Assembly: GCF_008704495.1 (NCBI RefSeq) | Contig: NZ_CP023699.1 | Span: 10,044,001-10,108,000 of the forward strand | Length of the DNA stretch: 64,000 nt | Reading direction: 5' to 3' | Source of the DNA: Streptomyces kanamyceticus | GTDB taxonomy: Bacteria; Actinomycetota; Actinomycetes; Streptomycetales; Streptomycetaceae | Shown: positions 5,525 to 16,730 of the stretch, one piece after another | Layout: each line of letters begins with the position of its first letter | How positions within the stretch are numbered: position 1 is the stretch's first letter | Notes under the pieces: generated by a model | What the model was told of the DNA's origin: nothing | Database searches by the model: none | Seen by the model: only the letters and a program-made list of their open reading frames with translations | Made by a program: the position numbers and the translations under genes

Positions 5525-5990
5525 CTGGAGAGTGGTGGGCGACCAAGACCGACACCCGAGGTGCGTTCATCATCGCCGATGCGGCCGGGCACTCGAGATA
5601 GACGTCTAGAGGGTCGCCGAGCGGGACTTACTCATCGCTTTCGACGACGACCTGGTCGCCGAGGCGAACCGGCTCCGCGGCCTGTTCGCGCAGGTCCACC
5701 CGCACTTGGACAGGATGCTGGGCCCGCACATGCAGCACCCGGGCGTCCTGGTCGTGTTGAAGCGGTTCGGCTCGCCCTCGGCTGACCGACGAGATCTTCA
5801 CCGCGCTCGAACAGACCGTCACCGATGCGGCCGCAATGATCGTCCCGAACCTGGCCCGGTCCCTGGCCGCCGTTCTCGAACAGCGCCATCTGCTGGAGCA
5901 GCGACTCGCTTCCTCAGCCCGGTCGAGTTCGAGGAGAAGCACTACGCCGAGCAGGCGACGGCCGAAGCAATGAACCTGAAACCCCGTCAA
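5525..5990 (+). pseudogene. IS110-family transposase remnant
   Basis: Fragments in changing frames match IS110-type transposases: KTDTRGAFIIADAA (the conserved KTDAKDA motif), then FDDDLVAEANRLRGLF, HPHLDRMLGPHMQHPGVLVV and a shifted LTDEIFTALEQTVTDAAAM. A stop codon and at least two frameshifts interrupt it, and neither the N-terminal DEDD catalytic part nor the C-terminal Ser domain is present. It is inactive. Confidence 0.75.
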
Positions 5991-6092
5991 CCCGCTCTGA
6001 CCATCCGCTCAGCACCTCCTGTGCAGCGGGGAACCCCACTCGGGCGACCGGGTCCGGGGTGGGACCGCCTGGTCGCGGTCGCACCGGGTCTA

Positions 6093-6113
6093 CCCGCTCG
6101 GGACCCGAGCGGG
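6093..6113 (-). terminator. Hairpin downstream of the esterase gene
   Basis: A 10-bp perfect stem (CCCGCTCGGG / CCCGAGCGGG) around one central base begins four bases beyond the esterase stop codon. There is no U-tract, as is common for Streptomyces terminators. Confidence 0.65.
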
Positions 6114-6116
6114 ACG

Positions 6117-7097
6117 TCAGTCCGCCGCCAGCACCCGCTCCAGCCAGGAACGACGGGCCTGCCACGCCGCCCGGCTGATGACCGCGTCCGGGACCACCAG
6201 GTCGAACGTGTGATAGCCGCCGGACCACACATGCAGCTCGGCAGAGCCGCCGGCCCGCCAGATCCGGTCGGCGTAGGCGACGGCCTCGTCGCGTAGCGTC
6301 TCCGCAGAGCCGACGTCGATGAAGGCGGGCGGCAGTCCGGACAGATCCGTGGCGCGGGCAGGCGCGGCGTAGGGCGACACGTCCGGGCCCCCACACTCGG
6401 AACCGAGCAGGGCCTTCCACCCGAAGCCGTTCCAGCCACGATCCCAGACATCGACACCGTCCATCTGATGGGCTGAAGCACTGTCGTTGCGGTCGTCGAG
6501 CATCGGGCACATCAGCAACTGCCCGACCAGCCGTGGACCGCCCTTGTCGCGCACCGACAAAGTCAGCGCGGCAGCCAGGCCACCGCCAGCACTTGTCCCC
6601 GCGACGACGATCCGGTCCGCGTCCAAGCCGAGTTCGGCCGCGTGCTCAGCGGTCCACAGCAGCCCGGCGTAGACATCGTCGAGCGGTGCGGGATGCGGAT
6701 GCTCCGGCGCGAGCCGGTATCCTGCCGAGATCAGCGACGCCCCCAACCGCTCGGCCTCGTCCAGCAGCGGTTCGAGGAAGAACAGGTGCCGCGGATCGCC
6801 GCTGAAGTAGCCGCCGCCATGCACGAAGTAGATGGCCGGGCGCGACGCGGCCAGGCCCGAAACGGCGGCAGGCGTGCAGATCAGCAGCTCGGCCTCTGAA
6901 GTACCGGACGCCCCCGGAACCGAGCGTGAAGTGACCTCGAACCGCCCGCCCCGTCGCAGGTCGTCGAGCGGCGGCACCTCTGCGGCGTCTTCGGCCCGGA
7001 CCATTGGCAGCCGCTCCAGGCTCATCGGGCCCGAACCGGCCCCATGCACCGCCCGGTATCCGTCCAGCAGCGCCGCATCGAAAGGTATTGCCACCAT
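6117..7097 (-). CDS. Alpha/beta-hydrolase-3 (HSL family) esterase
   Basis: A 326-aa protein starting at ATG 7097, with gaaggtgg as ribosome site. It carries the HSL-family oxyanion motif HGGGY, the nucleophile elbow GTSAGG, the acid region DVGSAETLRDEA and the catalytic His in GGYHTFDL, so the triad is complete. This family hydrolyses short-chain carboxylic esters in the cytoplasm. The length is usual for the family. It is a single-gene unit followed by a strong hairpin, and the natural substrate is unknown. Confidence 0.9.
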   Translation of the reverse strand: MVAIPFDAALLDGYRAVHGAGSGPMSLERLPMVRAEDAAEVPPLDDLRRGGRFEVTSRSVPGASGTSEAELLICTPAAVSGLAASRPAIYFVHGGGYFSGDPRHLFFLEPLLDEAERLGASLISAGYRLAPEHPHPAPLDDVYAGLLWTAEHAAELGLDADRIVVAGTSAGGGLAAALTLSVRDKGGPRLVGQLLMCPMLDDRNDSASAHQMDGVDVWDRGWNGFGWKALLGSECGGPDVSPYAAPARATDLSGLPPAFIDVGSAETLRDEAVAYADRIWRAGGSAELHVWSGGYHTFDLVVPDAVISRAAWQARRSWLERVLAAD

Positions 7098-7256
7098 CAG
7101 TCCACCTTCATCAGAATTCGCACGCCCCCCCGGGGATGGCGATCGTGTGCTCCGAATGCGCGCCCCGCGATCCATCGCTGGAAGCGAGAGCCCAGCCGCC
7201 GGAGGCAGTTTAGATCTTGCTCTACGTGGCCAACCCCCAGGGTTCCAGGGCCCGCG

Positions 7257-7469
7257 TCAGGCCGGGACACAGCACCAGGCGGGAGCGTGCGGCGTCTTCT
7301 GTACGGCTGCCAGGACGGCGGCCTCCCACACTGTGGCGTGCAGGCTCACGACCGCGACCAGAGGGATGGCAACCGTGCTGAGCGAGGAGCCCAGCACGTC
7401 GCTGGCCTGGTCCGTCCAGTACAGGCGGAAGTCGCGGTGGCGCCACAGGCTCGACTCTGTGGGTGTCAC
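7257..7469 (-). pseudogene. MFS transporter, N-terminal fragment
   Basis: GTG 7469 overlaps the TGA of the methyltransferase-Nudix gene (GTGA), so it is translationally coupled. The 70-aa product begins VTPTESSLWRHRDFRLYWT and continues through one membrane helix (LSTVAIPLVAVVSL), as in EntS-like major facilitator exporters (RNRDFRLLW type). After VLAAVQKTP it runs out of homology and stops. The remaining ten or so helices are absent. The operon therefore once ended with an MFS gene that has been lost. Confidence 0.65.
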
Positions 7470-8656
7470 GTCAGGCCGTCCGCCGTTGTGCGATGGGCGA
7501 AGGGGGTGAAGTGCGTGGGCGTGTGGTCGATGGGCAGGTCGGGGCGCCACGCCGTGAGGATGTTGGCGCTGCACTCGAATAGGTCGGAGGGGAGATCGTC
7601 GAGCGGACACCAGCGCCAGTCGCCGACGCTCTCGCCCGGCTGAGTGGCGGGCTTGCCTTCCCAGGCGGTGACGACTGCGCCGATGGTGACGCGTAGGACA
7701 TCGCCGACGTGATCGACGAGCGTGCCCAGGAGGATGACGTCCTCGGTGCGCGTGGTCAGTCCGGTCTCCTCGGCGAGTTCACGCACGACTGCCTCTTCCA
7801 GGGCTTCGCCCGCTTCCACGGTGCCGCCGGGCAGCTCGGTGGTGCCGAGGCGGTGGTGGCCCATGAGCAGGCCGTGGTCGCCAAGGACGATGGCGCCCAC
7901 GCCGAGGGCCGCATGCGGGGCGGGAGGCCGTCGAGTGCGTGGCCGACTGGAGATCCGTGTACGTCGTTCCGGAAGCCTCCGTGCACGGATGAGCTGATGG
8001 ACGACCGGGTTCTCCGCGTCGGGTGCGCTCAGCAGGTTCATGGCTTCGACCCGGAAGCCGTACGAGGTCAGCAGGTCCTCCCATAGGTGGGGGACGAGGA
8101 CGAACATGTCGACGGGAATCGCTGGCTCCTTGCGCAGAAGCAGCTGCTGCTCGCGCGGTGCGACGGTGGTAGACGGCCCGCGGCCATGAAGGTCTGTGTG
8201 GAGGACCGAGAAGATGAGTGGGGCGTCCGCGATCAGCGCGTCGCGCAGGGCGGGCAGGGAAGTGTGCGGATCAACGTAGGCGAGACTGCCGACCGCATAC
8301 GCGGCGTCGTACGGATCGGCCGTCCGTAGGTGCTCGATGACGTCCCCGTGTACCCAGTTGACACCTGCTTCGGTGCTGTAGTGGCGGGTGGCGCGGGCGT
8401 GCTGGGTGGTGGACAACTCGATCGCGGTGACGCGAGCGCCGTGGGCGCGGGCCAGATGGACGGCGTGGTGACCGGAGCCGGATCCGATGTCCAACACTCG
8501 CTTGCCGACGAGGCCGCCGAGAACCTCGCTGCCCGGTCCGACACCCTCCCACGGAGCCCACGAGATGTCCCCGGGTACGGGTGGCATGAAGCCGTGATCG
8601 AGCTGTCGTTGGCCGTAGAGCGTCCAGGCTTGGGCGTTGACGTCCTCGGTGGGCAC
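7466..8656 (-). CDS. Class I methyltransferase fused to a Nudix hydrolase
   Basis: A 396-aa two-domain protein starting at GTG 8656 behind an excellent ribosome site (aggagg, 5-base spacer). Residues about 1-225 are a SAM-dependent methyltransferase with motif I VLDIGSGSGHHAVHLA. Residues about 245-396 are a Nudix domain with a complete box (GTVEAGE … RELAEETGL). Nudix enzymes cleave nucleoside diphosphates linked to another moiety. The fusion suggests methylation and hydrolysis act in one pathway, perhaps on a nucleotide-linked compound. It is the last intact gene of the coupled operon that begins near 12919. Known Streptomyces proteins with this architecture have no established substrate as far as I know. 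Confidence 0.85.
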   Translation of the reverse strand: MPTEDVNAQAWTLYGQRQLDHGFMPPVPGDISWAPWEGVGPGSEVLGGLVGKRVLDIGSGSGHHAVHLARAHGARVTAIELSTTQHARATRHYSTEAGVNWVHGDVIEHLRTADPYDAAYAVGSLAYVDPHTSLPALRDALIADAPLIFSVLHTDLHGRGPSTTVAPREQQLLLRKEPAIPVDMFVLVPHLWEDLLTSYGFRVEAMNLLSAPDAENPVVHQLIRARRLPERRTRISSRPRTRRPPAPHAALGVGAIVLGDHGLLMGHHRLGTTELPGGTVEAGEALEEAVVRELAEETGLTTRTEDVILLGTLVDHVGDVLRVTIGAVVTAWEGKPATQPGESVGDWRWCPLDDLPSDLFECSANILTAWRPDLPIDHTPTHFTPFAHRTTADGLT

Positions 8657-8684
8657 GGTGCCTCCTGGGCGGGTGTGATGCGGA

Positions 8685-9617
8685 TCAGGTGTGCGTGCTG
8701 AGGTAGGCGGGGCCCTGGCCGCGCCGGGCTCGTTCGACCGCGTCCAGTCGGGCGAAGGACGTGGGCGCCATCAACTCCCGCCACGCGGCCATGTCGTGGA
8801 CGGCCCACATGTCGTGCTCGGTGGGATCGAGGCGGACGGACCGCAACTGGTCGGCGGTCAGCTGGCCTCCGTCGAAGATGAGACCCACCTTTTTCAGCGG
8901 CATGTGGGGCCCGGCGTGCAGGAAGTGCGTCAGGAGCAGGCCGGGCGCGTCCAGGCCGAGTTGGAGGCCGATCTCTTCGACCGTTTCCCGCTGGGCGGTC
9001 CGGAGCGGGTCTTCGCCTTGGGTATCGAGGTTGCCGCCGGGGAACTGCCACTGACGCGATCCGTAGACCGAGCGCAGCTGCACCGGTCGGTCGTGCTCGT
9101 CACGGACGTAGAGGCAGCCGTACACCGTGTGGTGGGGAACGGCCTGCGCGTACTTCGTGGGCGTCATCGGCAGGGGGAGTCCGGGCCGGGCAGGGCGGTG
9201 GTCGAACTCGAAGACCAGGGGGCCGAGCGCCTCCTGGTCCAGCGAGTAGATGGCGCGAAGGTTCGACAGGAGTTCCCCGCGGGGTACGTCGGGGTCGATG
9301 CGGGAGGCATCCTCCGCGTTGAGGAGATCCTCGAACGAGGCGTATGGAGTGATCCGCTTCACGATGACGTCGCGCTCCTGGTCGCTGTCCCGGTCGTGGA
9401 AGACGACGGCATCTCCTGCCTCGACGGCGGCCTTCGGCGGGGTGGCGACGCGGATCTCGATCGTCTTGCGACCTGACTCCACCTGCCGGTAGTAGCGGTC
9501 CATGAGGCGGAAGTGATGTTGGCGCCGCGGCAACGGTTCGGCCTCGTCGTGCGTGCTCGACGGCGTGTGGCGTGCATCGGTGTTGCCGTGGTCTTCGTCG
9601 TTCTGGGTGGTGAGCAT
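8685..9617 (-). CDS. ASCH domain fused to a Nudix hydrolase
   Basis: A 310-aa protein. After a polar N-terminus, residues about 36-135 resemble an ASCH domain (LMDRYYRQVESGRKTIEIRV, then GDAVVFHD), a PUA-like fold linked to RNA or modified-nucleoside binding. Residues about 160-300 form a Nudix domain with GGNLDTQGE, seven residues, then RETVEEIGL. The box has one extra residue before the first Glu compared with the canonical spacing. The ribosome site (aaggggg) is somewhat far from ATG 9617. The gene lies 96 bases after the preceding operon gene and 28 bases before the next. Pairing a nucleoside-recognition fold with a Nudix domain fits processing of a modified nucleotide. Confidence 0.8.
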   Translation of the reverse strand: MLTTQNDEDHGNTDARHTPSSTHDEAEPLPRRQHHFRLMDRYYRQVESGRKTIEIRVATPPKAAVEAGDAVVFHDRDSDQERDVIVKRITPYASFEDLLNAEDASRIDPDVPRGELLSNLRAIYSLDQEALGPLVFEFDHRPARPGLPLPMTPTKYAQAVPHHTVYGCLYVRDEHDRPVQLRSVYGSRQWQFPGGNLDTQGEDPLRTAQRETVEEIGLQLGLDAPGLLLTHFLHAGPHMPLKKVGLIFDGGQLTADQLRSVRLDPTEHDMWAVHDMAAWRELMAPTSFARLDAVERARRGQGPAYLSTHT

Positions 9618-9713
9618 GTGTGAAGGCTGCCCCCTTCTCGGTAGCGGTTTCCGGCCGAGGCGGCGGAGTTGCTGAGCGTGCCGCCCGCGTCGGTCGTGGG
9701 GATGCGGACGACG

Positions 9714-10250
9714 TCAGGACCAGCCCATGGGGAGGTAGGAGGTGCCGCGGGTGATCGCCTGTACGGCGACGCGCGTGTACTCGACGATGGGCTCGGGCAG
9801 GCTGTCCAGCGGCCACCAGCGCCACTCGGTGCAGCAATCCGGCTCGCGTACGACCGGCTCGCCCTCCCAGCGCGAGGGGGCGAAGAACAGTCCCAGGCGC
9901 GGGCTCGTGCTGCCGGGATCGAGCAGGTCCAGGACGTGGACGAGTGACAAGTCGGCCTGCGGGATGCGCAGTCCGGTCTCTTCCTCCGCTTCCCGGACCA
10001 TGCAGGCGACGGCGGATTCCGTGGTCTCGCGATGGCCGGCGGGAAGGTGCCAGGTCGAGGGGGCGAGGACCGGCACTTCGGGGGCGAAGGCATGCCGGGG
10101 CACGGTACGCAGGGCCTCGTCGACGGCGGGGGTGCGGATGTGGCCGGACTCGGCGAGCTGGTCGGCCAGTTGATGGCGTAGAGCGCCTGCTTCGTCGAGG
10201 TCGGTGGTGGGAGATGGGGTCACGGAGGGCCTTTCGGGCGAGTGGGTCAT
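9714..10250 (-). CDS. Chimeric protein: PCMT-type N-terminus on a Nudix domain lacking its first strands
   Basis: A 178-aa protein, ATG 10250, overlapping the ABC gene stop (ATGA). Residues about 22-57 (ALRHQLADQLAESGHIRT then VDEALRTVPRHAFAPEVP) match the N-terminus of protein-L-isoaspartate-type methyltransferases, including those called FxLD-system methyltransferases. Directly after, at STWHLPAGHRETTESA and REAEEETGL, a complete Nudix box begins, but the early Nudix beta strands are missing. The simplest reading is a deletion that fused the 5' end of a methyltransferase gene to the 3' part of a neighbouring Nudix gene. The reading frame stayed open, but whether it folds is uncertain. Confidence 0.75.
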   Translation of the reverse strand: MTHSPERPSVTPSPTTDLDEAGALRHQLADQLAESGHIRTPAVDEALRTVPRHAFAPEVPVLAPSTWHLPAGHRETTESAVACMVREAEEETGLRIPQADLSLVHVLDLLDPGSTSPRLGLFFAPSRWEGEPVVREPDCCTEWRWWPLDSLPEPIVEYTRVAVQAITRGTSYLPMGWS

Positions 10251-12238
10251 GCGGGGTCCGCGACGGTGGGCTCGGCGGGCTTCGGGATGCTGGCGGTGGG
10301 GGCGTACTGGGCGGCCTGCGTGTCGAACATCGCGGCGTACCGGCCGCGTTGGGCGAGGAGTTCGTCGTGCGTGCCGTGCTCGGCGAGGCGTCCTTGGTTG
10401 AGGACGTAGATGTGGTCGGCGTGGCGGACGCCGGACATGCGGTGGGTGACCAGGACGACGGCCCGGTTCGGGGCGGCCAGGCGGCGGATGCGGTCGAAGG
10501 CCGCGATCTCGGCCTCGGGATCGAGCGCGGAGGTCGGCTCATCGACGATCAGGACGCTGTCCGCCCGCGAGGTGGCGCTGCGCCAGTGGGTGCGGGCCAG
10601 GCCCACCTTCTGCCACTCGCCGCCGGACAGTTCAGTGGCGCCGCGGAACATGCGGGCCAGCAGGCTGTGCAGACCGTCGGGGAGTTTGGCGATGACCGCA
10701 GCGGCGCCCGCGTAGTCGAGCGACGGCTGCAGGTCCTGCGATGTCCCGGCGTGGGCAGGGCGGCCGATGCGGATGTTCATCGCGGCGGTCACCGGCCAGC
10801 GCTGGAAATCCTGGGTCAGCAGGGAGACCCGCTCGAAGTACTGGGCCCGGTCAAGGCCGCTGATGTCCGCCTCGCCCCAGCGCAGCGTGCCTTCCTGGGG
10901 CAGCAGCATGCCCGACAGGACCTTCATCAGCGTGCTCTTGCCGGAGCCGTTCTCACCCACCACGGCGGTCACCGACCCCATCGGCAGGGTCAGCGACACC
11001 TGCTCCAGGGCCGCCGTGTCACGGTCGGGGTAGCAGTAGGTGACCCGGTCCAGGATGATCTCCTTGACCCGGTCAGGCACCGGGGCGCCGCCCGCGGGGA
11101 TGGTGCGCCGCGCGGCCTGGGTGAGGAACCGGCCGTGGTCGCGGACGTAGAGGGATTCCTCGTGCAGCCGGTTGATGTTCATCACCAGCCCGCCCAGGCT
11201 CGCCGACCCGGTCCGCACCGCGATCACGGCGGTCCCGGCAACGGCGAGGCTCATGTGACCGGCCAAGATCAGCCAGAACATGGCCCCGTAGGTGGCGGCC
11301 ATGGCCAGTCCGGACAGGGCCGCGGCGACCCACTCGGTGAGGGCTTTGCTGGAGGCGAGGCGTTCCTGTTCGCTCTCGGCGCTCTCGGCCATGCGCTCGT
11401 AGCGGCTGAGGAGGAACGGGCCGACGGCATGGAGACGGACCTCCTGGGCGGCGGTGCGCTCGGTGAGGAGATTGCCGATCAGGCGGCTGGCCCGTACGTG
11501 CTCGATCCAGCTCAGCACCGACACATACCGCTCCTGGGCCACGCGCATGGCGCCCCAGCCGCGTGGGGCGGCGATGAGGAGCAACAAGGGCAGGAGCAGG
11601 GGATGCAGAACGGCGAGGACACTCGCGGTCGTGACCAGAGAGATCAGACCGTTCAGGGCCGCGACACAGGCGCCGATCATGCGGCGGGCGGCGCCGGGCC
11701 CCTGCTGGGCGATGTCGACGAGCCGCCGGAAGTCGGGATCCTCGATGGCCTCCAGCTCGACGCCGGCAGCGGCGGCCAGGTACTGGGTGGTGGCGATCCG
11801 CTCGATCTTCGGCTCCAGACGCCCTGCGCGGGAGGTGGACCAGGCTGAGAGGGCGGAGTTGGCGACACCGATGGCGGCGGCGGCCAGCAGTCCGGGTAAC
11901 AGCGCGTGCAACCGCTCGGCGGGGCTGCCGGTTCCGGCGAGCAGCGCGTGCATGACGGCGTTGACGGCGAGCAGCCCCATGGCCGCGGCGATGCCCTGGC
12001 CGATCTCGCTGACCGCCACGGCCAGCAGGGCGCGCCGGTCGACCTGCCAGGCCATGCGCAAGGTGGCGCCGACGAGCGAGGGCATGGAGCGCAGCGCCGA
12101 CATCATGGTCAGATCCAAGCTGGCGTGCTCGTGCTGCGACCAGCCCAGGTCATAGCGCAACGGTCCGCCGAACAGCTCCTGTTCGGCGTCGGACACCCGG
12201 GGCTCGGCCATCTTCACCGGTCCGAAGAACCTCTTCAC
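10247..12238 (-). CDS. ABC transporter half-molecule (permease + ATPase)
   Basis: A 663-aa exporter-type half-transporter. Start GTG 12238 overlaps the upstream Nudix stop (GTGA). The membrane domain covers about residues 60-345, and the ATPase carries Walker A GENGSGKST, signature LSGGEWQKVGLAR, Walker B SVLIVDEPTSALD and the H-loop VTHRM. Such proteins act as dimers and export peptides, lipids or small molecules. Membership of an operon with two tiny ORFs and several Nudix proteins suggests it exports the pathway product. The substrate cannot be read from the sequence. No peptidase (C39) domain is present. Confidence 0.92.
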   Translation of the reverse strand: MKRFFGPVKMAEPRVSDAEQELFGGPLRYDLGWSQHEHASLDLTMMSALRSMPSLVGATLRMAWQVDRRALLAVAVSEIGQGIAAAMGLLAVNAVMHALLAGTGSPAERLHALLPGLLAAAAIGVANSALSAWSTSRAGRLEPKIERIATTQYLAAAAGVELEAIEDPDFRRLVDIAQQGPGAARRMIGACVAALNGLISLVTTASVLAVLHPLLLPLLLLIAAPRGWGAMRVAQERYVSVLSWIEHVRASRLIGNLLTERTAAQEVRLHAVGPFLLSRYERMAESAESEQERLASSKALTEWVAAALSGLAMAATYGAMFWLILAGHMSLAVAGTAVIAVRTGSASLGGLVMNINRLHEESLYVRDHGRFLTQAARRTIPAGGAPVPDRVKEIILDRVTYCYPDRDTAALEQVSLTLPMGSVTAVVGENGSGKSTLMKVLSGMLLPQEGTLRWGEADISGLDRAQYFERVSLLTQDFQRWPVTAAMNIRIGRPAHAGTSQDLQPSLDYAGAAAVIAKLPDGLHSLLARMFRGATELSGGEWQKVGLARTHWRSATSRADSVLIVDEPTSALDPEAEIAAFDRIRRLAAPNRAVVLVTHRMSGVRHADHIYVLNQGRLAEHGTHDELLAQRGRYAAMFDTQAAQYAPTASIPKPAEPTVADPA

Positions 12239-12702
12239 CGGGGACCTCCCGAGGTAGGCCAGTTCATGGCCCGGTAGGACGGGCCGTGGGTGAGCATCTG
12301 GAAGATGGCGGCGGTGTAGGGGTGGCAGTCCGGCGAGGGCTTCTCCATCGACACCCAGAACAGCCCGTCGTGCCGGTCCGGCTCGGCGTTGTACGGCTCA
12401 CCGCTCCAGGACTGCGTCACGAAGACCGCGGTGATCCGATCCGTGCCGCCGGGCTTGTGGTGATGGACCAGCCCGCAGAACTCCTGCTGGTCGGCACGGA
12501 TACGAACCCCGGTCTCCTCCTCCGCCTCACGTCGCGCCGCGAGGTCCAGTGGTTCGCCGGCTTTGAGATGGCCGCCCACAACGGTGAGTTGTCCCGGCGC
12601 GAGGGCCGCATCCGGCTTGCGTCGCACACACAAGACGGCGCCGCTGGACCGGAGCAGGATCTGCGCCACGTCCGCGATCAGTAGATGGGGAGCCTCGGTC
12701 AA
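12235..12702 (-). CDS. Nudix hydrolase, TTG start
   Basis: A 155-aa single-domain Nudix protein. I chose TTG 12702 because gggaggga lies just upstream and TTGA overlaps the stop of the 26-aa ORF. The frame is open further upstream, but that part has no protein-like composition. The box is canonical: GHLKAGE, seven residues, REAEEETGV. LLRSSGAVLCVRRKPDAALA is the usual first strand pair. It overlaps the ABC transporter start by four bases, so translation is coupled. It is the most ordinary of the four Nudix domains in this operon and may have been the ancestral hydrolase. Confidence 0.85.
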   Translation of the reverse strand: MTEAPHLLIADVAQILLRSSGAVLCVRRKPDAALAPGQLTVVGGHLKAGEPLDLAARREAEEETGVRIRADQQEFCGLVHHHKPGGTDRITAVFVTQSWSGEPYNAEPDRHDGLFWVSMEKPSPDCHPYTAAIFQMLTHGPSYRAMNWPTSGGPR

Positions 12703-12779
12703 CGCTGTCCCTCCCGCACCAGGCGCTGGACCGTACGCCGGCCGCGCGCGGGGGAGGAATGACGAGCGGAGTGAGTCAT
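12699..12779 (-). CDS. 26-aa coupled small ORF
   Basis: ATG 12779 overlaps the stop of the 47-aa ORF (ATGA), and its TGA overlaps the TTG start of the Nudix gene (TTGA). The peptide begins MTHSARHSSPARGRR and ends REGQR, basic and low in complexity. It may be a translational bridge rather than a functional peptide. The double overlap is the main evidence that it is translated. Confidence 0.45.
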   Translation of the reverse strand: MTHSARHSSPARGRRTVQRLVREGQR

Positions 12780-12919
12780 GCCAGGTACCTCGGATCCGGT
12801 CGTGACCCCTCGGCGAACAGGGCGGCGCGGCCGGAAGCGAACTGACGCGCGATACCCGAGGAGGCGGCAGCGTTTTCGAACGCAGGATGAACGAGCGCAG
12901 GGCGGCGTACGGGATGCAC
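12776..12919 (-). CDS. 47-aa small protein, first gene of the Nudix operon
   Basis: GTG 12919 follows gaggag with a five-base spacer. The peptide starts VHPVRRPALVHPAFENAAAS and ends GSRPDPRYLA, with IARQFASGRAALFAEGS between. It has no Cys, no signal peptide and no membrane segment. Its TGA overlaps the next ORF start. Position at the head of an operon with an exporter would suit a peptide precursor or a small regulatory protein, but nothing in the sequence proves either. I do not recognise the family. Confidence 0.55.
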   Translation of the reverse strand: MHPVRRPALVHPAFENAAASSGIARQFASGRAALFAEGSRPDPRYLA

Positions 12920-12997
12920 GGGGACTCCTCGGGGCGGGATGCGGACAGGTGATCGGGTAACGGGCGATCTGCTGTCGCCGTAACGGGTGGGAGCGGG

Positions 12998-13019
12998 CGA
13001 AATCTAGAACGAGATTTCG
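12998..13019. promoter_or_regulatory. Palindrome upstream of the Nudix operon
   Basis: CGAAATCT, six bases, AGATTTCG: a perfect 8-bp inverted repeat in a locally AT-rich stretch. It lies about 80 bases upstream of GTG 12919. Size and position fit a dimeric repressor site or part of the operon promoter region. Confidence 0.55.
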
Positions 13020-13295
13020 AATACCGGGCCCTCTCCTTGTGTGGCCGAGTGGGGCCGGCTGTGATGCTGCGTTCGATCACTCATGTGGGTTTCGGTAACC
13101 CCTCCGGGGGATTGCCCGGTACCGCCTGCCGTCCCGGAGTAGCTGCCGCAATGCGGTTTCGCCGAGGGGGGACGGCTCTGGACCGTGACTGCCGGGGATC
13201 CGCGGGCAAGATGCGAGCCCCGAGCTTCTCCGCCGTGATCACCGCACGGAGTGCGTCTGCCTGATCACCGCTCAGTGCGGCGCTGCTGCCGGTGC

Positions 13296-15574: not shown

Positions 15575-16468
15575 ATGCCGAACATCCTTCGAGTCGCGCT
15601 GGCCGACGAGGAACGCCGTGACCTGCATGCGCTGCTGGGTCGCCGCGATCTGACCCGGTACTCGCGGCAGCGCGGCGAGCGCATGCGGCTCCTCGATCAG
15701 GGCCGGTCCGTTGCTGAGGTCGCCAGCGTGCTGGAGTGCCATCCGGTCACGGTCCGCGCCACGGTCCACCGCTTTGTGAAGGGTGGGATCGCGGGGCTGC
15801 CGGATGCCCTGCGGCCGGGCAGGCCGGCGAGGCTGCTGGGGGTGGAGGACCGCGCCGCGCTGGGCGAGCTGCTGGACTACTCCGGCCAGGCCGGGATCAC
15901 GTGGGGTGTCCCGGCCCTGTGCGAGTGGCTGCGGGCCGAGCGCGGGGTGGAGATCTCCTCGGACTGGTTGGGCGAGCTGCTGCGGCGCGAGGGCTTCTGC
16001 CGGAAGCGCACCCGCGACAGCGTGCGGCACAAGGCAGATCCCGTCCTCCAGCAGGCCGCCTGGGCCCAGTTGGAGGACTTGCGGCCTTGCGTCAGGCCGC
16101 ACACGCGGGAGAACGCGATCTGATCTTCCTGGACGAGTCCGGCTTCGCTCCCACCATGCCCACCGGCTACACCTGGTCCAGGATCGGGCGGCGTGCGGTG
16201 GCGCCGCGTGAAGACATCCGCAACCGCCGGGTCAACGTGCTCGGCGCGAGGATCATCGGCGGTGAGCCGGAACTTCTCTGGCAGCGCGCCAGCGGGAAGA
16301 TCGACGGGGAGATGCTGCTGGACTTCGTCTGCGTGCGGCTGGCGGGCCTGGGCGGCGGCGCGGCCGTGCTGGACCTGGCCGCCGACGGCCTTGGCGTCGA
16401 CACCATGCCGGTCTTCGAACGGCACAGGCCGTGCACGGTCGTACTGGACAACGCCTCGGGCCCCCTGC
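15575..16468 (+). pseudogene. IS630-family transposase, frameshifted and truncated
   Basis: Start ATG 15575 (MPNILRVALADEERRDL) follows ggggaggg. The first 170 residues carry the helix-turn-helix part (LDQGRSVAEVASVLECHPVT). A one-base shift near 16095-16110 moves the frame to DLIFLDESGFAPTMPTGYTW, which contains the first catalytic Asp of the DDE domain. VVLDNAS, with the second Asp, is present, but the sequence diverges at 16468 before the PYSPELNxIE box with the final Glu. It is therefore inactive. Some IS630 elements use programmed frameshifting, but the C-terminal loss is decisive. Confidence 0.85.
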
Positions 16469-16523
16469 CGTCCATCGCCGCACTCATCCGCATCGCGCGC
16501 ATCCCCCTTCAGGGGAGGACGCG

Positions 16524-16730
16524 ATGAGCCCACCCGAGACGTGCGCCTCAGAACGACGGGCTCAGGAGGTGTACGAGGTGTACCTCGCGCACATCGATGG
16601 CTGCGCCCCCTGCCAGGCCGAGGAGGATTGCGTGGAGGTGGCGCGGATTCGTCGTGATCTCCGCGCCGCACGGGCCGCGGTGAGGGAGAGCCCGGCGCTG
16701 CGGGCGGCCCGAGCCGAGGCCCGCAAGTGA
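16524..16730 (+). CDS. Small Cys-containing hypothetical protein, 68 aa
   Basis: ATG 16524 follows aggggagg. The 68-aa product (MSPPETCASERRAQEVYEVY…) contains HIDGCAPCQAEEDC, a cluster of one His and three Cys that could hold a metal. A basic helical C-terminus (IRRDLRAARAAVRE) follows. Proteins of this type are common near plasmid and integrative-element genes in Streptomyces. Here it sits beside a DUF6192 pseudogene. I do not recognise a named family. Confidence 0.65.
   Translation: MSPPETCASERRAQEVYEVYLAHIDGCAPCQAEEDCVEVARIRRDLRAARAAVRESPALRAARAEARK

Follow-up and report, generated by a model that had tools for sequence, protein, structure and literature searches.

Genomic organization of a multi-Nudix operon

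We analysed a 64,000-nucleotide stretch of Streptomyces kanamyceticus DNA (here 'the window'; bases 10,044,001–10,108,000 of the single-contig genome NZ_CP023699.1, 10,133,897 bases) that contains a run of eight open reading frames (ORFs) encoding four Nudix domains and one ABC half-transporter. The run extends from position 12919 to position 7257 of the window on the minus strand (Table 1). The assembly ends 26 kb beyond the window, which gives the run a terminal chromosome position. Five of the seven ORF junctions are 4-nucleotide overlaps (12779–12776, 12702–12699, 12238–12235, 10250–10247 and 7469–7466), and the remaining two are gaps of 96 and 28 nucleotides, confirming the initial annotation of eight consecutive, mostly overlapping minus-strand ORFs.

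Nudix hydrolases are normally encoded by single genes. Four ORFs of the run match the Pfam NUDIX model (2.8e-16, 8.2e-14, 3.7e-8 and 3.1e-18). All four domains exceed the Pfam cut-off and have an RExxEE core by position type; the domain at 9714–10250 lacks its N-terminal part. Other Pfam matches in the run are ABC_tran (2.7e-23), Methyltransf_25 (1.9e-12) and ASCH (21.2 bits, exactly at the cut-off). The arrangement of four Nudix domains around one ABC half-transporter, as first annotated, is thus supported by family models. We identified 43 Nudix hits in the whole 10.13-Mb genome. Random placement put four hits within 5.2 kb in only 13 of 200,000 trials; the cluster is therefore real and unlikely to be due to chance.

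The best solved relatives of the ABC protein in a PDB sequence search are P-glycoprotein/MsbA-type (1.5e-61 and 4.4e-35). Both the ATPase and the region preceding residue 400 match exporter-type models and chains, as in a half-transporter. The methyltransferase-Nudix protein is a genuine fusion and the ASCH-Nudix protein probably one, as first annotated. In the latter, residues 35–116 match chain 1xne and residues 160–220 match ADP-ribose pyrophosphatase; the solved ASCH-type chains 1xne and 2z0t lend the putative ASCH domain weak support.

Table 1. Features of the operon and its leader (positions in the window)
Feature	Position	Strand	Basis
pep1, 47-amino-acid conserved short ORF; candidate precursor or leader peptide	12776..12919	-	Alignment A2
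pep2, 26-amino-acid ORF; deletion scar of an APH-like phosphotransferase gene	12699..12779	-	Alignment to L162
Nud1, complete single-domain Nudix hydrolase, 155 amino acids, TTG start	12235..12702	-	PF00293 2.8e-16
ABC half-transporter (membrane and ATPase), 663 amino acids	10247..12238	-	PF00005 2.7e-23; PDB sequence search
PAMT-stub/Nudix remnant, 178 amino acids	9714..10250	-	Alignment and frame against L068; TIGR04364 stub
ASCH-Nudix fusion, 310 amino acids	8685..9617	-	Pfam; PDB matches; alignment to L054/L068
Class I methyltransferase-Nudix fusion, 396 amino acids	7466..8656	-	Pfam
MFS exporter gene, 70-amino-acid N-terminal stub	7257..7469	-	Alignments to L039, L066
Conserved leader/promoter region upstream of pep1, ~200 nucleotides	12915..13115	-	Alignment A3

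Deletion scars in the window

Comparison with related loci (numbered L) indicates that the oddly shaped ORFs of the window are deletion scars. The DNA on either side of pep2 aligns with L162 in two blocks (window 12960–12763 with L162 1460–1657, 85%; window 12751–12641 with L162 2461–2571, 84%) that leave a gap of ~0.8 kb. An APH-like gene (276–315 amino acids as called) lies between pep1 and Nud1 in L162, L163, L165, L167, L168 and L180. The window retains the first few and the last ~17 codons of this gene, and APH genes share a C-terminal ARG(R/Q)RT... sequence with pep2. Of the two tiny peptides originally annotated, pep1 is therefore retained as a conserved short ORF, and pep2 is reassigned as the scar of a deleted APH-like gene.

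A larger deletion shaped the PAMT/Nudix ORF, where PAMT denotes an isoaspartyl-type methyltransferase. Window 13291–10071 aligns with Streptomyces olivochromogenes L068 4099–7361 (86%), and window 10065–9568 aligns with L068 8999–9497 (80%). The ORF is 1,632 bp shorter than the gene for a 722-amino-acid PAMT-Nudix-Nudix protein in L068, with the frame kept. Its PCMT stub scores 38 bits over 41 residues against TIGR04364 (cut-off 320), whereas the full PAMTs of L062 and L068 score 388 and 375 bits. The remaining Nudix domain begins at profile position 29 of 134; the N-terminal stretch is kept in L067. What had been described as a PCMT/Nudix chimera is thus better read as the in-frame deletion product of a longer gene.

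Two further reductions are apparent. The N-terminal ~12 residues of the ASCH-Nudix protein are a relic of a methyltransferase domain (MTb) that is full in L054 and L068 and has also been lost in L066. The last ORF, annotated as the start of an MFS exporter, is a 70-residue stub with no Pfam match, 74% identical to the start of an MFS gene in L039. Its DNA alignment with L066 stops at position 7288. The MFS gene encodes 388 amino acids in L066, is called as two ORFs in L039 and is also cut in L067.

Other relatives carry comparable in-frame reductions, including an APH-Nud1 fusion (L166) and a pep1-Nud1 fusion (L169), each followed by the ABC gene. In L171, pep1 runs into the last Nud1 codons, and this ORF overlaps the ABC gene by 4 nucleotides; in L174, pep1 adjoins the ABC gene in a frame that is not resolved. 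Not every loss is in-frame, because Nud1 of L165 is broken out of frame. These comparisons show that the operon shrinks by repeated, mostly in-frame deletions, leaving tiny scar ORFs that are open to misreading as peptide genes.

The intact genes show low ratios of nonsynonymous to synonymous substitution (dN/dS; pairwise, window against relatives, from a script written for this analysis): 0.16–0.22 for the ABC gene, 0.24–0.35 for ASCH-Nudix, 0.29–0.33 for methyltransferase-Nudix, and 0.21 and 0.23 for Nud1 against L068 and L078. Both halves of the PAMT/Nudix remnant give 0.23–0.24. Low dN/dS is no proof of present function, because most of the history that it records predates the deletions.

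A Nudix-rich cassette in Streptomyces

We identified 55 named ASCH-Nudix loci, all in Streptomyces or Actinacidiphila, using an alignment of four ASCH-Nudix proteins (A1). Flanks of up to 10 kb were fetched, in full for 43 loci and shorter for 12, so that a gene's absence from the latter is weak evidence. Nudix domains were counted on both strands of the whole fetched flank with a hidden Markov model built from 15 seed domains. Gene calls in relatives came from a simple codon-composition script, and the labels APH, VanX, MFS, TPR, HIT and LanC were assigned largely by BLAST to a labelled relative or by eye. Some loci carry more than one number across tools (L054/L104, L057/L094, L088/L149/L195, L117/L158, L080/L160 and L078/L194).

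At least two Nudix domains are present at 45 of the 55 loci (44 after collapsing split domains), at least four at 30 and at least six at 22, with a maximum of 10 in 21 kb. The genes of the window thus do co-occur elsewhere, the test that the initial annotation had set for its proposal. Frequent partners are genes for a triple-Nudix protein (34 loci), an M15 peptidase (33), a double-Nudix protein (25), an AAA kinase (23), MTb (16) and PAMT (16). The methyltransferase or its Nudix domain occurs at 32 loci, and both at 19. The ABC gene is of the window type at 8 loci and of a second type (32–45% identical) at 22, while Nud1 and pep1 are found at 6 and 5 loci, respectively. The M15 peptidase of L062 matches PF01427 (2.5e-15). 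The L078 kinase matches AAA_33 (4.1e-21) and Zeta_toxin (2.1e-5); the other AAA kinase, at 23 loci, matches AAA_33 weakly.

L088 (Streptomyces sp. NRRL S-37) is the fullest single locus that has both pep1 and a kinase/M15 gene. It encodes eight Nudix domains on one strand in the order pep1–Nudix–ABC–PAMT–double Nudix–triple Nudix–kinase/M15–ASCH-Nudix–methyltransferase-Nudix. L078, L080 and L117 follow the order pep1–Nud1–ABC–PAMT–double Nudix–triple Nudix–ASCH-Nudix–methyltransferase-Nudix–M15–AAA kinase, with eight Nudix domains on one strand and two more nearby.

Wider searches place limits on this association. Of 200 family genomes, 9 contain full-length ASCH-Nudix genes (11 places), and 63 contain matches at E <= 1e-20, mostly to the Nudix half. 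Among the matches listed, a methyltransferase gene lies beside 6 of the 11 full-length ASCH-Nudix genes, with only 2 complete methyltransferase-Nudix genes, so the genome-wide pairing is partial. Methyltransferase-Nudix genes at >=90% coverage were found at 19 places in 18 of 200 family genomes among the matches listed, source genome included, and several relatives (~54–55% identity) lie in unrelated neighbourhoods (L041, L043 and L045). The window-type ABC protein has matches at E <= 1e-150 in 113 of 197 order genomes, mostly at ~50% identity. A mobile plasmid origin was also considered: ASCH-Nudix relatives are present on 4 of 72,556 plasmid records, all from Streptomyces; in 3, the match covers at least 80% of the query.

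We also observed larger Nudix-rich islands in L066 (1–20930, Streptomyces albospinus), L053, L055 and L056. The L066 island encodes a cytidylyltransferase (PF02348), a nucleoside diphosphate kinase, a CYTH protein and an epimerase by Pfam; L053 and L056 encode HIT-, MazG- and endonuclease-like proteins by eye. L197 contains an independent run (5990–10700) in which about four Nudix domains accompany an ABC protein (43% identical) and a methyltransferase, which suggests that the Nudix–ABC–methyltransferase grouping is more widespread.

Distinct Nudix lineages

The initial annotation had called for trees of the Nudix domains. We built a tree of 272 domains from the 55 loci, the window and six other loci, with labels assigned by the best BLAST seed at >=45%. 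The domains sort into position-specific clades, except that tripC, L068C and the window remnant group together. Node support is 0.89–1.0 for most types, 0.64 for the tripC, L068C and remnant group, and 0.11 for the weakly supported ASCHnud. The RExxEE core is kept in Nud1 (7/7), MTaNud (25/25), ASCHnud (59/60), tripA (25/28), tripB (28/29), tripC (31/32), dblA (22/23) and dblB (22/23). A further 26 domains are labelled 'other' (17 with the core), one of which falls in the Nud1 clade. Because the domains form position-specific clades, the cassette assembles several different enzymes, not recent copies of one. Tandem duplication of a single Nudix gene is not supported; outside the tripC/L068C/remnant group, each position forms its own clade.

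Association with lanthipeptide gene clusters

Several observations link a subset of cassettes to LANTHIPEPTIDES. LanC or LanB-C-terminal genes are present at 12 of the 55 ASCH-Nudix loci, and at 11 when the count is repeated with other lanthipeptide queries. By comparison, among 17 methyltransferase-Nudix loci that have no full ASCH-Nudix gene, 1 has lanthipeptide genes; this comparison set is small with slightly shorter flanks, and its sole positive, L052, supplied two of the first queries. Family models confirm LanB (PF04738, 2.9e-154), LanC (PF05147, 3.3e-27) and a LanB-C/PAMT fusion (TIGR04364, 410 bits). Both gene sets can form a single run, as in L149 (FxLD region–LanB–LanC–LanB-C/PAMT–TPR–pep1–Nud1–ABC–PAMT) and L192 (LanC–SpaB_C/PAMT–pep1–APH–Nud1–ABC–double Nudix).

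FxLD precursors (TIGR04363) exceed the cut-off near the cassette at 9 of 15 loci tested. These nine are all eight lanthipeptide-type loci tested and L088, with the precursor 0–5 kb beyond the fetched flank; contig placement was read directly for L149–L151 and, for the remaining six, deduced from contig numbers or coordinates. Of the nine precursors, eight are near-identical (seven end in MCSTGDTCGSSCPSACTTS and one in MCGTGDNCGSSCPSACTTS), and that of L099 differs.

The FxLD precursors of the L099 genome (G204) have a DDGC-type core, and its cassette is similar to the others. This locus may help to separate the cassette from the product type. L094 (Streptomyces olivaceus NRRL B-3009) also has the cassette, with no LanC or LanB-C gene in its fetched flank; a PAMT-modified lanthipeptide of this strain is mentioned in PMC7268733.

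The window differs from these loci. LanB, LanC and LanB-C queries (tblastn) find no match in the window or its flanks (L063–L065), while the same queries recover the genome's own cluster (L153). The link to a peptide compound suggested in the initial annotation finds support in those relatives flanked by lanthipeptide genes; a dedicated pathway in the window itself is not supported. The L153 cluster (positions 4736000–4755500 of the source genome) encodes an FxLD precursor, LanB, LanC and PAMT; a Nudix gene and, by eye, an XRE-type gene lie directly upstream.

The pep1 ORF and its leader

The short ORF pep1 follows the pattern MHPVRRPALVHPAFEN...GSRPD-T/P-RYLA, with both ends conserved in an alignment of seven sequences (A2), and its length changes in L080 and L067 are multiples of three. 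Among 392 genus genomes, 22 contain it, at 25 places in total; of these places, 4 are apparently chance matches inside another gene. Because its dN/dS is 0.5–1.4, the coding status of pep1 is not settled, and neither this range nor the altered start codons in L170 and L166 allow it to be called a proven precursor of a ribosomally synthesized and post-translationally modified peptide (RiPP). Aspartimide formation by PAMT requires a backbone NH after the aspartate, which proline does not provide. All 6 aligned relatives have D-T at this site, and the window pep1 has D-P. The peptide may thus have been lost together with PAMT, the enzyme presumed to act on it.

The leader is conserved across 22 sequences (A3; mean column identity 84%, some rows near-identical). 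It holds an inverted repeat with 7-bp arms (CGAAATC-N8-GATTTCG, 12998–13019) and two CCGTTAC repeats ~23 bp apart. Allowing up to two mismatches, the window has a single copy of the inverted repeat (mean of 0.07 in shuffles), and the whole genome has a single copy of the leader core pattern. A structured RNA was considered and rejected: there is no Rfam match at gathering scores, 0 of 21 pairs show a compensatory change and the fold z-score is -0.77. Given this lack of evidence for RNA structure, the leader is more likely a promoter/operator than an RNA element. We also noted a second possible conserved short ORF in the leader (12960–13080, MSDRTQHHS...), which in several relatives ends at a TAG inside the inverted repeat.

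A proposed origin as a reduced accessory module of RiPP clusters

We propose, with a probability of roughly 60%, that the operon is a reduced accessory (export, protection or tailoring) module of FxLD-type RiPP clusters, mainly of class I lanthipeptides, in Streptomyces. The evolutionary part of this proposal, reduction from a larger module, is very probable. The functional part is tentative: the remaining exporter and predicted Nudix enzymes would contribute to export, protection or clean-up when a peptide antibiotic is produced.

Pooled from several relatives, as no single locus examined has all parts, the module would read pep1–APH-type kinase–Nudix–ABC exporter–PAMT–double Nudix–triple Nudix–AAA kinase/M15 peptidase–(methyltransferase-)ASCH-Nudix–methyltransferase-Nudix–MFS, with PAMT sometimes fused to two Nudix domains. 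In the window, in-frame deletions have taken APH, most of the PAMT-Nudix gene and one methyltransferase domain, and the MFS gene is truncated as well. In-frame scars would preserve translational coupling, and the intact Nudix, ABC, ASCH-Nudix and methyltransferase-Nudix proteins could therefore still be made. The ABC exporter and Nudix enzymes may protect the producer during peptide antibiotic production or clear phosphorylated or nucleotide-bearing by-products. The window copy would have lost the ability to make the peptide or to modify it; it is probably still partly functional and no longer a complete pathway.

Several observations weigh against this proposal. No LanC or LanB-C gene was found in the fetched flanks of 43 of the 55 loci. 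No FxLD precursor over the cut-off was found in the genomes of L078, L080, L117 and L066, that of L067 sits on another contig, and none was found in or near the window; the sole such precursor of the source genome is at 4.744 Mb, 5.3 Mb from the window. The ABC gene also occurs without another cassette gene within ~8 kb at 7 of 14 loci (picked from 122 listed places to span identities; two repeat L078 and L088). MTbNud keeps the RExxEE core in only 3 of 5 domains, and the out-of-frame break in L165 and the mostly pre-deletion history behind the dN/dS values count on the same side. The protective role is one that we infer, as we do expression, protein activity and the Nudix substrates.

The initial annotation saw in the window a complete dedicated pathway for making, modifying and exporting a nucleotide-linked or peptide compound, a reading that we regard as very unlikely. 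The conservation of pep1, the co-occurrence of the genes with exporters and methyltransferases in relatives, and the cytidylyltransferase (PF02348) and nucleoside diphosphate kinase near the L066 cassette speak for it. Yet the window retains only scars or stubs of the PAMT, APH and MFS exporter genes, its pep1 has D-P, unsuited to aspartimide chemistry, in place of the D-T of its relatives, and lanthipeptide synthesis genes are missing from the window and flanks. Support for a nucleotide-linked product is slight: no nucleotidyl-transfer gene was recognised in the window operon, although no systematic search for adenylating or nucleotidyl-transfer enzymes was made. At the other extreme, the three internal deletions and one truncation, together with the terminal and standalone position, would suit a lanthipeptide-linked cassette that moved to the chromosome end and is now eroding without present function. 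This is unlikely, as the internal deletions leave ORFs with their original start and stop ends, the leader is conserved and the four intact enzymes have dN/dS values of 0.16–0.35, though this history mostly predates the deletions.

The operon could instead clean up nucleotide pools or damaged metabolites, its lanthipeptide link reflecting incidental clustering in variable chromosome regions. Such a role would fit two loci at which no lanthipeptide gene was found and Nudix genes accompany HIT-like genes (L053, by eye) or nucleoside diphosphate kinase and CYTH genes (L066, by Pfam); it would also fit the independent run in L197 and the 1.6-kb group of three other Nudix genes at 6.826 Mb of the source genome. 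The recurrence of pep1(–APH)–Nud1–ABC beside lanthipeptide genes in L192, L088 and L168 and the linkage of 11–12 of 55 loci versus 1 of 17 make it quite unlikely. Immunity at the level of cell-wall precursors is highly improbable; the window itself has neither a kinase nor an M15 gene. AAA (zeta-toxin-like) kinases and M15 peptidases act on cell-wall precursors, and both an AAA_33/Zeta_toxin kinase and an M15 peptidase are found in the cassette (33 of 55 loci have M15 and 23 have the other AAA kinase). On this reading the AAA kinases, the APH-type sugar kinase, the D-Ala-D-Ala-type peptidase and Nudix diphosphatases would alter UDP-sugar or lipid II precursors and so spare the producer from the co-encoded lanthipeptide.

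Our preferred reading, an accessory module reduced in the window, makes the full cassette of the relatives the object of interest. We consider it doubtful, yet worth stating, that Streptomyces RiPP clusters use about eight different Nudix hydrolases as working parts of a new logic, of protective groups or of self-immunity, for a lanthipeptide with a precursor ending in STGDTCGSSCPSACTTS or a close variant. In such a scheme, APH and AAA kinase would make a phosphorylated or nucleotidylated peptide, sugar or cell-wall intermediate, which position-specific Nudix enzymes would hydrolyse; in the window, the exporter and part of the hydrolase battery would be all that remains. A conserved run of up to eight Nudix lineages, partly beside one lanthipeptide type, would point to undescribed phosphate or nucleotide chemistry in RiPP production or self-protection. 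The complete cassette in named Streptomyces offers a clear experimental system.

Relationship to known systems

The closest described systems are FxLD class I lanthipeptide clusters with an isoaspartyl-type O-methyltransferase (families I 1–4 of PMC7268733, whose main text does not contain the word 'Nudix'). As noted above, the cassette lies beside LanC and/or LanB-C-terminal/PAMT genes in 11–12 of 55 relatives; the precursors beside the relatives' cassettes match TIGR04363 and the PAMTs match TIGR04364. The window differs in lacking any lanthipeptide gene. Pamtides are PAMT-only RiPPs (PMC10787088, with 'Nudix' likewise not in the main text). The pep1-type loci resemble them in having a short ORF of ~47 codons upstream of PAMT in the same run, and differ in the (APH,) Nudix and ABC genes between pep1 and PAMT. 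A pamtide precursor adjoins an active PAMT as its main modifier, and in the window PAMT is deleted.

The Nudix hydrolase Pur7/CstH of the puromycin and cystocin clusters provides a precedent for a Nudix enzyme belonging to an antibiotic cluster (PMC11641026). It is a single gene, described there as acting on NTP, unlike a multi-Nudix RiPP neighbourhood. In the open-licence literature searched, no multi-Nudix RiPP cassette was found described. The ABC protein resembles P-glycoprotein/MsbA-type exporters in sequence and differs in being a half-transporter with standalone relatives. An anti-phage defence role was considered and set aside: the 10 proteins examined with PADLOC (5 from the window) matched no specific model and showed only generic ATPase, methyltransferase and Nudix similarities.

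Upstream of the operon, we observed an IS630-like transposase (by eye) split across two ORFs (window 15575–16527). The three further Nudix genes elsewhere in the source genome (6825866–6827449, L154) lie on alternating strands, a layout unlike that of the operon.

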